Part shown: positions 42,065-44,856 of the stretch, one piece after another
How the letters are laid out: each line of letters opens with the position of its first letter
Position numbering within the stretch: position 1 is the first letter of the stretch
Source: Alphaproteobacteria bacterium
GTDB lineage: Bacteria; Pseudomonadota; Alphaproteobacteria; RF32; CAG-239
Direction: 5' to 3'
Length of the DNA: 51,726 nucleotides
Assembly (NCBI GenBank): GCA_028706255.1
Contig: JAQWBS010000009.1
Span: 1 to 51,726 of the forward strand
Notes under the pieces: generated by a model
Database searches by the model: none
Seen by the model: only the letters and a program-made list of their open reading frames with translations
What the model was told of the DNA's origin: nothing
Position numbers and translations under genes: made by a program

Positions 42065-42778
42065 CTACTTCTCGTTTGTAGATTCCACGTGCTTAATTTC
42101 CTTACATAAAGCACCTTCTCGCTGATAGTTTTCAAGACTATCTAGTTTCTTTTGTTCTTCTTTCAATTTTGCTTTGAACGTTTCAACCATTGGCTCAACA
42201 AAACTTATATATTCTTTGCTGATTTCTTCATTAACAGGAGCAAGTTCCGTCAAGCTCTCTGCTTTTCTTGGCAAAACTTCTTTACCAACTTGCGGAAGCA
42301 TTTGTTCAATTTGAATAGCAAAATAGTCTAATGCTGTTTTATTAATTTGCTGATGTGTCTGTTCATGTCTTAAAACGACATCATATTCGCAAGTGTCTTC
42401 TTTTAAGTTCTTATCAATATAAATGGTTGGGTTTTCATAGCCTAAAAACATATTTATCTTAACTGGAATGACACAAACATCTCCGCTTGTTTGAGAAATG
42501 TGATTAATGGTGTCAATAGAAATTTCCCAACTGATGTTGATGGTTGAAAGCCCCGCAGCAAACAAACCTTTTTCTACAACACCAAATTCTTTGCCAATTT
42601 CCGTAATTTCTTCCCGACTTTTTTCTCGATTATAATTGAGCTTTCCATAAGAGGCTTCAAATAATATCTCAGGTTCAGGAATAATTTCCTCACAAGCAAT
42701 TTCCTCATCAGCTAAAACAAAATTAGCTTTTATGCAAAAAAAAGTGAAAATGATTAAGATTAAATTTGTTTTTTTCAT
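42065..42778 (-). CDS. Secreted protein with HExxH metalloprotease-like motif
   Basis: A signal peptide ends near VLADEE (residue 24). The mature domain has HEQTH at 138-142, a zinc-metalloprotease-like HExxH site within LRHEQTHQQINKTAL, flanked by beta strands. The third zinc ligand (often a Glu or His downstream) is not obvious. The last 60 residues form charged helices and include VETFKAKLKEEQKKLD. It may be a periplasmic peptidase or a structural relative; no named family recognised. Convergent with the HAD gene (stop codons 2 bases apart). Confidence 0.6.
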   Translation of the reverse strand: MKKTNLILIIFTFFCIKANFVLADEEIACEEIIPEPEILFEASYGKLNYNREKSREEITEIGKEFGVVEKGLFAAGLSTINISWEISIDTINHISQTSGDVCVIPVKINMFLGYENPTIYIDKNLKEDTCEYDVVLRHEQTHQQINKTALDYFAIQIEQMLPQVGKEVLPRKAESLTELAPVNEEISKEYISFVEPMVETFKAKLKEEQKKLDSLENYQREGALCKEIKHVESTNEK

Positions 42779-42828: not shown

Positions 42829-43344
42829 ATGAAAAAAAACTTTTTTACAACAACCGTTTTTATGTTTTTTTTGCTCGTTGCTTCTTTTTGCTTTGCACAA
42901 GGAACATATGTGAGAAAAAAAATCCAACCTAGTTTCTACATTCCCGAATCTGCCTTGGACAAACCTGAAAAACTTCCTGAGTTTCAAATTCCTAAACTTC
43001 AGCCTCAAAAGTTTATATCCATTCCAATCCCTGAAGAAGCAGAAGAACCTGAAGATACAGCAATAGAAGAAATAGAAGTAGCACCTATTGCTTCTTTACC
43101 TGTTGCGCTTAAAAAGACTGAAAAGAAGCAAATTCTTCCCAATAATAAATATGCCCAGCTGATTTTAGAGAAGCTCTCTCTTGAGCCAGCTGATTTTCAA
43201 AAAAGATTTAACATCTACCAAGAAGATATCAAGCTTTTGTCAGAAACAGGAAATTTGCCAAAAAATGAACAACTTGAGCGTGAACTCTCTTTTATGAACT
43301 CTGCAGACAGAACCTCTTTACAAAATCTTTTTTCGCAAAACTAG
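42829..43344 (+). CDS. Hypothetical secreted Pro/Glu-rich protein (171 aa)
   Basis: A signal peptide (to SFCFAQ) is followed by a low-complexity region rich in Pro, Ile, Glu and Lys (IPIPEEAEEPEDTAIEEIE) and a helical C-terminus. It may be a periplasmic adapter or tether. It is divergent from the HExxH gene across 50 bases. It has no recognised domain. Confidence 0.6.
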   Translation: MKKNFFTTTVFMFFLLVASFCFAQGTYVRKKIQPSFYIPESALDKPEKLPEFQIPKLQPQKFISIPIPEEAEEPEDTAIEEIEVAPIASLPVALKKTEKKQILPNNKYAQLILEKLSLEPADFQKRFNIYQEDIKLLSETGNLPKNEQLERELSFMNSADRTSLQNLFSQN

Positions 43345-43353
43345 AAATATTAT

Positions 43354-43381
43354 TTGACATTTTCGACAAAATATATAAAAC
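43354..43381 (+). promoter_or_regulatory. Candidate promoter for the GNAT leader
   Basis: A perfect TTGACA lies at 43354-43359. A -10 such as TAAAAC (43376-43381, spacing 16) or TATAAA (43374-43379, spacing 14) is less clear. It would give a transcript starting about 15 bases before the small ORF at 43401. Confidence 0.5.
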
Positions 43382-43400
43382 TCCTTGTCAGAGGTATTTT

Positions 43401-43478
43401 ATGAATAATATAAATTTTAATATTTTTTCAAAATTGGGACGAGGTCTTCGCACACGTAGATTCAATCTGCGACGATAG
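43401..43478 (+). CDS. Arginine-rich 25-codon leader peptide candidate
   Basis: AGAGG lies 6 bases before an ATG that opens a 25-codon frame to TAG at 43476-43478. The peptide has six Arg, with tandem pairs at residues 19-20 and 24-25, and a C-terminal part reading LGRGLRTRRFNLRR. Its last codons fall inside hairpins that lead to an intrinsic terminator just before an acetyltransferase gene. That is the layout of ribosome-mediated attenuation. A small cationic peptide, or no translation at all, are alternatives. Confidence 0.5.
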   Translation: MNNINFNIFSKLGRGLRTRRFNLRR

Positions 43479-43543
43479 ATTATGCCTTTTTATAATTTAT
43501 AATAATCGTTGCAGGGGTTTGGATTTCACAAGCCTCTTTTTTT
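43455..43543 (+). terminator. Attenuator-like stem-loop set with terminal poly-T
   Basis: Stem 1:2 is CGTAGAT (43455-43461) with ATCTGCG (43465-43471). Stem 2:3 is CTGCGACGAT (43467-43476) with ATCGTTGCAG (43505-43514), one G-U pair. Stem 3:4 is AGGGGTTTG (43513-43521) with CAAGCCTCT (43529-43537), two G-U pairs, followed by TTTTTT to 43543. Stems 1:2 and 2:3 share five bases. Stems 2:3 and 3:4 share two, so their competition may be weak. The GNAT start codon is 22 bases after the T run. Confidence 0.55.
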
Positions 43544-43565
43544 ACTCCCTTTGAAAGAAATTAAA

Positions 43566-44321
43566 ATGACACAGTTGACCGCTAAAAGACTTAAACCAGA
43601 AAATATTCATGATGTTGTTGCCTTGCAAGAAACGATTGTTCAAAACTTGCACCCTGATGAGCAACACTTCATCATTAAAAAATCTGAACAAGATTTTATG
43701 AAAACATTGAAAAATGACAACAACTATGTCCTCGGAGTTTATGACCACGATAAGTTGGTCGCTCAAAGCATTCTCTCCTTACCGCAAAACTACCAAGAAA
43801 GAGAAATGCCTGAATATGAAGGTAATCACCAGAACGAAGACATTGCCATTTATAAATCAATTTTAGTTAATCCGCATTACAGAAAACATGGCTTGATGAA
43901 AAAAATGTTGGAAACGTTTGAAACACTTGATTCTGTGAAGCAAAGAAAAGTTGCCCTCATTCAAATTGCTGTCGACAATCCTGCAAGCTGGATTAATGCC
44001 ATGAAACATGGTATGCACATTTCAAAAGTTGCGCATGACCCTGAAGATGATGCAATGGTTATTTATTTGAAAAAAGATCTTCAGAAAAAGCAAGATGCAA
44101 AAGAATCGGCAAAAGGTGACTATCATTTGAAAATTGATGATAAAATCTTACATCACCCTGAAATTTTATTCCAAAAGATGCAAAAACTTTCACAAACCAT
44201 GATTGGCGGAAGTTGGGACAAAGAAAGCCAGTCCATCGTTTGGCAAAACAAATATAACACCAAAACAAATGCTCAGACATATTTTTACGTCAAGGGGAAG
44301 TCTTATGCAAATGCTAAATAA
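43566..44321 (+). CDS. GNAT-family N-acetyltransferase
   Basis: The GNAT core is visible: residues ~95-145 include IYKSILVNPHYRKHGLMKKML, where RKHGLM is the acetyl-CoA motif A (Q/RxxGxG/A), followed by motif B (LIQIAVDNPASWINAMKHG). An extra ~60-residue C-terminal extension is unusual for a simple GNAT. The ATG at 43566 is chosen; the frame starts upstream at 43509 but that would run through the terminator hairpin. The following GNAT gene overlaps by 17 bases. Substrate unknown. Confidence 0.8.
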   Translation: MTQLTAKRLKPENIHDVVALQETIVQNLHPDEQHFIIKKSEQDFMKTLKNDNNYVLGVYDHDKLVAQSILSLPQNYQEREMPEYEGNHQNEDIAIYKSILVNPHYRKHGLMKKMLETFETLDSVKQRKVALIQIAVDNPASWINAMKHGMHISKVAHDPEDDAMVIYLKKDLQKKQDAKESAKGDYHLKIDDKILHHPEILFQKMQKLSQTMIGGSWDKESQSIVWQNKYNTKTNAQTYFYVKGKSYANAK

Positions 44322-44856
44322 GCTCGAGTTGCCTGAATATATTGAGACAGAAACTTGCTATGCCGTAAGAAGAAAACACGAGCATAATACGGAAATGCTT
44401 GAAGCAATCGATAAAAACCGTGTCTTCTTGCGAGAATTTTTATTCTGGGTGGACAAGACAAAATCTATTGATGATGTTAAAAATGCAACAAATATGTTCA
44501 TTGCCTCATGGAACAATGGAGAGAATTACGCTTATGCCATCTTTAACAAAGACAACAAACTCATTGGCTCAATTGATTTGCATGAGATTAATTCTTTCGA
44601 CCGAAATGGTGAGTTTGGATATTGGCTTGCTCCTGAAGAAAATGGAAAAGGACACATCAGCCGTCTACTCCAAAAAATTGAAAAAATGGCATTTGAAAAA
44701 GGATTGGTTCGCATCTACATTCGTTGTGATGTTGCTAATTTACCTTCCAATAGAGTCTGCAAGAGGAATGGTTATGTTTTTGAAGGTTGTTTGAAAAAAG
44801 CATTAAACACTTATGGTGAATTTCACGATTGCAATCTTTATGCTAAGACAATTTAG
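44305..44856 (+). CDS. GNAT acetyltransferase, RimJ/RimL-like
   Basis: A 183-residue enzyme similar to RimJ/RimL-type protein N-terminal or antibiotic acetyltransferases. The core is FGYWLAPEENGKGHISRLLQ (motif A, GKGH), then IYIRCDVANLPSNRVCKRNGY (motif B) and the ending EFHDCNLYAKTI. ATG at 44305 has AAGGGGAAG 4 bases upstream and overlaps the previous gene. The two genes are thus translationally coupled. Confidence 0.85.
   Translation: MQMLNKLELPEYIETETCYAVRRKHEHNTEMLEAIDKNRVFLREFLFWVDKTKSIDDVKNATNMFIASWNNGENYAYAIFNKDNKLIGSIDLHEINSFDRNGEFGYWLAPEENGKGHISRLLQKIEKMAFEKGLVRIYIRCDVANLPSNRVCKRNGYVFEGCLKKALNTYGEFHDCNLYAKTI

Follow-up and report, generated by a model that had tools for sequence, protein, structure and literature searches.

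A conserved Arg-rich leader ORF and terminator before a GNAT acetyltransferase gene in one alphaproteobacterial family: a probable ribosome-controlled attenuator

Between its promoter and a pair of GNAT acetyltransferase genes, the alphaproteobacterial contig JAQWBS010000009.1 carries a short Arg-rich open reading frame (ORF) followed by an intrinsic terminator. Do these parts form a regulatory leader and, if so, to what does it respond? The locus lies in the 51,726-nucleotide stretch of DNA analyzed here, referred to as the window (Table 1). The original prediction interpreted the arrangement according to the logic of trp/his attenuation, with arginine as the signal. The parts are where it had placed them: the TTGACA box, the 25-codon ORF with six Arg codons, the terminator and the GNAT start all have the coordinates claimed, and the tandem Arg codons 19 and 20 do coincide with the 5' strand of a possible stem 1:2. 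The ribosome-binding site, which had been called good, is also present, although homologous leaders show it at a lower grade (Table 1). The leader is very probably a ribosome-controlled on/off switch. In our view it probably works in cis, as a ribosome-controlled transcription attenuator of the GNAT acetyltransferase operon.

Table 1. Features of the leader and of the GNAT genes in the window (contig JAQWBS010000009.1)
Feature	Position	Strand	Basis and remarks
-35 box TTGACA of the leader promoter	43354-43359	+	Read from the sequence; position kept in homologous leaders
Weak -10 of the leader promoter	about 43374-43382	+	Read from the sequence
Shine-Dalgarno-like AGAGGT of the leader ORF	43390-43395	+	Sequence; weak to moderate in homologs
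Leader ORF MNNINFNIFSKLGRGLRTRRFNLRR, ATG at 43401, stop TAG	43401-43478	+	25 codons, six Arg; ...LRR end conserved
Basic cluster R-T-R-R, codons 17-20	43449-43460	+	Putative stall region; Arg conserved, codons vary
CGT-AGA, codons 19-20	43455-43460	+	5' side of possible stem 1:2
Strand 2, CTGCGACGAT (CTG CGA CGA T)	43467-43476	+	Leu-Arg-Arg codons and first stop base; covaries with strand 3
Strand 3, ATCGTTGCAG	43505-43514	+	Complementary to strand 2; covariation and minimum-energy fold
Intrinsic terminator (stem 43513-43537, T-run to 43543)	43513-43543	+	Terminator scan; covarying stem in relatives
GNAT acetyltransferase 1 (GNAT1), 251 aa, presumed controlled gene	43566-44321	+	Pfam Acetyltransf_9 and _1; AlphaFold GNAT fold
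GNAT acetyltransferase 2 (GNAT2), RimL-like, Acetyltransf_3	44305-44856	+	Pfam and NCBIfam; start overlaps GNAT1 end

The terminator scan of the window lists the leader terminator. The promoter scan does not list the leader promoter, because its -10 element is poor. Folding of the whole window leader gives -37.1 kcal/mol (z = -3.0 relative to shuffled sequence), and the segment comprising helix 2:3 and the terminator reaches z = -5.1. At the Rfam gathering score the leader has no match, and relaxed thresholds yield chance-level matches only, with high E-values. A DNA-level search with the leader likewise returned only AT-rich chance matches. Conservation of the leader is invisible to a DNA search alone; what is kept is the peptide and the architecture rather than the sequence.

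The GNAT1-GNAT2 tandem is found in some relatives only, with an identical order in G001. In fold, GNAT1 comes closest to PaiA and to other GNATs acting on small molecules or peptides, a match that is generic for GNATs. The sequence match to AAC(6') is weak, a PDB sequence search with the GNAT gave no match and PADLOC gave no defence hits. A role as N-acetylglutamate synthase of the arginine pathway was considered and discarded, as neither ArgG nor ArgJ turned up in the family genomes searched. On the other side, the leader adjoins two proteins without a Pfam match (42065-42778 on the minus strand and 42829-43344 on the plus strand); G001 has similar counterparts of both at the same place, together with the GNAT pair and TrcR.

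To follow the leader among relatives, we compiled 47 GNAT orthologs including that of the window (E <= 1e-25) among 152 genomes. They belong to a single alphaproteobacterial family of uncultured gut bacteria, and their GNAT identity ranges from 34 to 100%. Searching the contigs with a single protein as query returned nothing, and an alignment query returned 48 named loci; widening the search from family to order brought in one extra genome and added nothing. The original prediction had staked itself on conservation in close relatives, and the leader ORF is present at 46 of the 47 orthologous loci, even over GNATs with only 34-53% identity to that of the window. At L039 (genome G110) there is no leader and the GNAT start lies directly behind the promoter. 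TTGACA stands 102-118 bases before CGACGA at 38 of the 46 loci, compared with 5.5% of background windows, and an intrinsic terminator follows 41 of the 46 leaders. The terminator is gone from genus g3 (L005, L049, L061, L062 and L064), which keeps the LRR-stop leader with CGA-CGA. Thus, the element before the GNAT gene is not a product of chance: relatives keep its promoter position, its leader ORF and its association with the GNAT, and helix 2:3 and the terminator are both conserved and covarying. Two public records, L108 (JAISVX010000003.1) and L154 (JAISFX010000154.1), are titled Lactobacillaceae or Lactobacillus; they look mislabelled, because they group in the alphaproteobacterium's own genus or family. 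Three of the terminator-less g3 loci (L061, L062 and L064) have other hairpins near the GNAT start, e.g. CGCGAAAACGCGAGG in L064, which perhaps reflect a switch to translational control.

The 46 leader ORFs are about 18-25 codons long and end in x-Arg-Arg, mostly Leu-Arg-Arg, encoded as yTG-CGA-CGA and followed by TGA, TAA or TAG; L045 has one extra CGC beyond the CGA-CGA pair. Arg accounts for 27% of leader residues vs 3.4% in the long ORFs of the window. It occupies positions -1 and -2 in all 46 leaders, -7 in 45, -6 in 34 and -9 in 29. The upstream Arg residues are encoded variously by CGT, CGC, CGA and AGA. For the final pair the codon is invariably CGA, which makes up only 30 of the 433 Arg codons in the long window ORFs. 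Arg at -7 is kept despite the changing codons, and selection therefore acts on the residue. Homologs differ freely in the N-terminal half of the peptide. At two loci, L047 and L065, the TGA stop has changed to TGG and the peptide is extended by several residues toward strand 3, with CGACGATGG retained.

RNA structure was analyzed in an alignment of the 38 leaders with a terminator (A2). CGACGAT is invariant in all 38 sequences. Helix 2:3 and the terminator stem are 95% paired and contain 38 double changes, compared with 10.8 in shuffles; their score is 0.276, vs 0.04-0.14 when the helices are slid, where pairing is 32-47%. The pairing of 43467-43476 with 43505-43514 proposed in the original prediction is thus borne out by both complementarity in the window and compensatory changes in relatives, and the relatives also conserve Arg residues. 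The pair at the overlap (columns 45:109) alone has 11 double changes: the first base of the Leu codon, preceding TG, is C or T according to whether strand 3 has G or A. Column 109 doubles as the first terminator pair. Changes of this type arise several times on the GNAT tree, and on independent branches with both sides changed they always go in the same direction and never in the opposite one, the events being too few for significance. Among alternative helices, pairing of the post-stop region with the terminator arm shows no covariation and its pairing with strand 3 gives a weak signal. Stem 1:2, to which the original prediction assigned a part in the switch, is 84% paired, but its covariation is not above that of shuffles.

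The alternative structures were also folded. In nearly all members, equilibrium folding yields the terminator whether the ribosome is left out, placed on the Arg cluster or placed on the stop codon, and helix 2:3 can coexist with it. Stems 2:3 and 3:4 have only 43513-43514 in common in the window, a two-base overlap against which the prediction itself had cautioned; the overlap is absent in the Met-Arg-Arg group and reaches up to four bases elsewhere. Mutual exclusion of helix 2:3 and the terminator is therefore conjectural, since the terminator is predicted throughout and the overlap is 0-4 bases. Of the trp/his-type logic, the Arg-rich leader ORF, the conservation of helix 2:3 and the terminator upstream of the GNAT operon are supported; mutual exclusion and stem 1:2 are putative.

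A possible relation between the abutting helix and a classical antiterminator comes from a second GNAT paralog, present in 28 family genomes and in most of them preceded by its own leader and terminator (loci L170-L194). The window genome also carries this paralog (G000:C11, about 171362-172165; L191), with leader SIKRLVIKKKAS. The leader motif of the second system is KQ[LMI]KxK(K)R, with Lys as the prevailing residue and a conserved Gln. At L170 the overlap between the antiterminator strand and the terminator arm is complete, and at L187 and L191, both from the window's genus, the corresponding helix abuts the terminator as in the GNAT1 leader. This comparison suggests that the abutting helix is a variant of a true antiterminator.

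Taken together, these features would fit the following scheme. Transcription would start just before the leader ORF of 18-25 codons, which we presume to be translated. A free-running ribosome arriving at the stop codon would cover strand 2, allowing the terminator to form and leaving the GNAT mostly untranscribed. If instead the ribosome slowed down in the basic cluster, some 5-8 codons upstream of the stop, with its stall site at Arg -7 or earlier, strand 2 would be free to pair with strand 3. The resulting helix would abut and slightly overlap the terminator base, hinder its closure and permit read-through. We infer that a helix joined without a linker to the terminator base might hinder closure in the polymerase exit channel and by itself be enough to weaken termination. 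Several observations count against an attenuator: the terminator is predicted at every ribosome position, the overlap is absent in the Met-Arg-Arg group, stem 1:2 does not covary, g3 has no terminator, G110 has no leader, and CGA-CGA is fixed where helix 2:3 is lost, a fixation that the attenuator model leaves unexplained.

Genome-wide occurrence was assessed with a covariance model (R1), which matches the window leader at E = 1e-12, run over the 152 family genomes. Each genome with a strong match has a single one, located upstream of the GNAT, apart from two cases: in G152 the match is at a contig edge, and in G083 leader MLMQNLHNFNEELRRRTERR with a terminator precedes a 565-aa ATP-grasp-like protein instead. 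No other regular target class, such as Arg transport genes, emerged from these genomes. Outside the family, a GNAT in the distant-family genome G348 is preceded by MFTSYTPLDLTAVAARGVLTGSPVLLRR-stop (an LLRR-stop leader written CTGCGACGATAG), 113 bases after TTGACG; this single example is without the Arg cluster and without an evident terminator. A class-wide search for TTGACR-N90-113-YTGCGACGATRR gave, apart from the window and G348, about as many matches as expected by chance, none of them with an ORF of this type.

What, then, slows the ribosome? The original prediction's answer was arginine limitation, with uncharged Arg-tRNA stalling the ribosome at the tandem Arg codons and turning the GNAT on. 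The high Arg content of the leader fits this answer, as does the Salmonella orf34 leader, in which two consecutive Arg codons sense arginine (PMC6386406). ArgG and ArgJ were not found in the family genomes searched, where weak ArgG matches are partial and fall on frames of ~367 aa that are probably a related enzyme; because both proteins are absent, the family probably consists of arginine auxotrophs, which would also suit an arginine sensor. However, the same absence also speaks against arginine as the signal, the GNAT has no known arginine link, and R1 shows no other target. Moreover, the second GNAT paralog has a sister leader rich in Lys and with a conserved Gln, members with three Arg codons persist, and starvation sensing needs neither the conserved spacing nor a fixed CGA-CGA-stop, which persists without the terminator and helix 2:3. 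Arginine as the signal is thus not substantiated, and we regard an arginine-limitation attenuator as doubtful. A tentative alternative, to which we give similar weight, is ligand-responsive arrest of the ribosome on the basic +x+ motif. According to PMC8298421, ketolides stall ribosomes at Arg/Lys-X-Arg/Lys motifs. R-x-R-R occurs in most leaders of the first family and K-x-K-R in the second, and the closeness of the GNAT fold to that of PaiA and of other GNATs with small-molecule or peptide substrates, with the weak AAC(6') match, could indicate an enzyme that modifies such a ligand. Yet Arg at both -9 and -7 is found in most leaders, not all, so that +x+ is absent from some, a resistance function is putative, and the fold match is generic for GNATs. 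As the +x++ pattern of both systems resembles the ketolide stall motif, we think that the basic nascent chain is no less important than the charging of Arg-tRNA. Slow translation of this chain, caused by a ribosome-targeting inhibitor or another ligand, is the trigger to which we would give nearly an even chance; a shortage of charged Arg-tRNA is plausible with a somewhat lower probability, and we would be rather surprised by any other trigger.

The remaining readings place the function elsewhere. The real signal could be that the ribosome arrests or terminates slowly at the invariant CGA-CGA-stop (LRR-stop), the terminator and helix 2:3 having been added later. CGACGAT does not vary in A2, CGA-CGA survives in the terminator-less g3, the stop-loss loci L047 and L065 retain CGACGATGG, and the G348 GNAT follows an LLRR-stop leader. 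Because of its persistence in g3 and G348, CGA-CGA-stop may have a function of its own. As the primary signal it is unlikely: a ribosome at the stop would cover strand 2 and favour the terminator over read-through, G348 stands as one example, and the invariance is partly due to pairing with strand 3. An independent short transcript that ends at its own terminator and encodes a functional cationic peptide or acts as a small regulatory RNA, with leaky read-through into the GNAT, would account for the complete promoter, ORF and terminator unit and for the cationic character of the peptide. The original prediction had allowed for such an sRNA. We consider it improbable, because nearly all genomes have the element upstream of the GNAT and nowhere else; in addition, conservation of the peptide does not extend to its N-terminal half. 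The attenuator controlled by a ribosome slowed in the basic cluster is the reading we prefer.

With trp/his attenuators the GNAT leader shares a short ORF with regulatory codons, a helix using the ORF end and an intrinsic terminator. It differs in that its 2:3 helix only abuts the terminator, the stop codon lies inside strand 2, and the gene it targets encodes a GNAT rather than an enzyme that makes the amino acid specified by the leader codons. We do not assign it to the trp type, since the amino-acid-pathway feature fails and mutual exclusion is only conjectured. The pyrL leader peptide probably ends in Arg-Arg before the stop and is likewise accompanied by a terminator; there, by contrast, the ORF overlaps the terminator and control works through coupling to pausing of RNA polymerase. 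The speF leader (SpeFL, encoded by orf34; DUF2618) resembles the GNAT leaders in that consecutive Arg codons of a leader peptide control a downstream gene, and the GNAT is possibly polyamine-related too; however, the speF leader uses Rho and RNase G without an intrinsic terminator and targets ornithine decarboxylase (PMC6386406). The HIRRT-HIM core of its peptide occurs in none of the 46 GNAT leader peptides. With macrolide/ketolide erm-type leaders (PMC8298421) and with vmlR, an example of an antibiotic-responsive transcription attenuator (PMC9226507), the GNAT leaders share the short leader, a basic +x+ in most members and putatively stall-controlled expression of a possible modifying enzyme. 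In contrast to them, the GNAT leaders have no methylase or ABCF target and are not known to respond to a drug. Leader-peptide attenuation is known, as is arginine-codon sensing for speF; in the literature searched, most of it outside subscription papers, we found no report of Arg- or Lys-rich attenuator leaders before GNAT genes, and the leaders are undescribed there. If the switch works, it offers a direct handle on the signals to which these acetyltransferases respond. It also provides a case for asking whether an abutting, non-overlapping helix can prevent termination and whether Arg-Arg-stop written as CGA-CGA is an arrest signal.

Other short conserved ORFs precede related genes in these genomes. 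ATP-grasp (YheC/D-like) genes at L158-L169 lie behind ORFs that have LRSL-stop ends or contain RLSLRRSLGAVILF; a hairpin (GCCTCTGA...TTCAGAGGC) spans the stop codon of some of them. It is conceivable, if speculative, that unrelated leader peptides (RxRRxxLRR-stop, KQ[LM]KxKR and perhaps ARG-stop and LRSL-stop) stall on basic residues or on CGA-CGA-stop and switch acetyltransferase and ATP-grasp genes on in response to a translation inhibitor or a polyamine-like signal, as a new class of arrest peptides rather than as amino-acid-starvation attenuators. The third GNAT paralog group (L008, L012, L195 and L197) has leaders ending in ...ARG-stop or ...CKRKxTAGI-stop. At L008 and L012 the stop codon is enclosed by a near-perfect hairpin, and a 5' hairpin with a trailing T-run immediately precedes the leader ATG.
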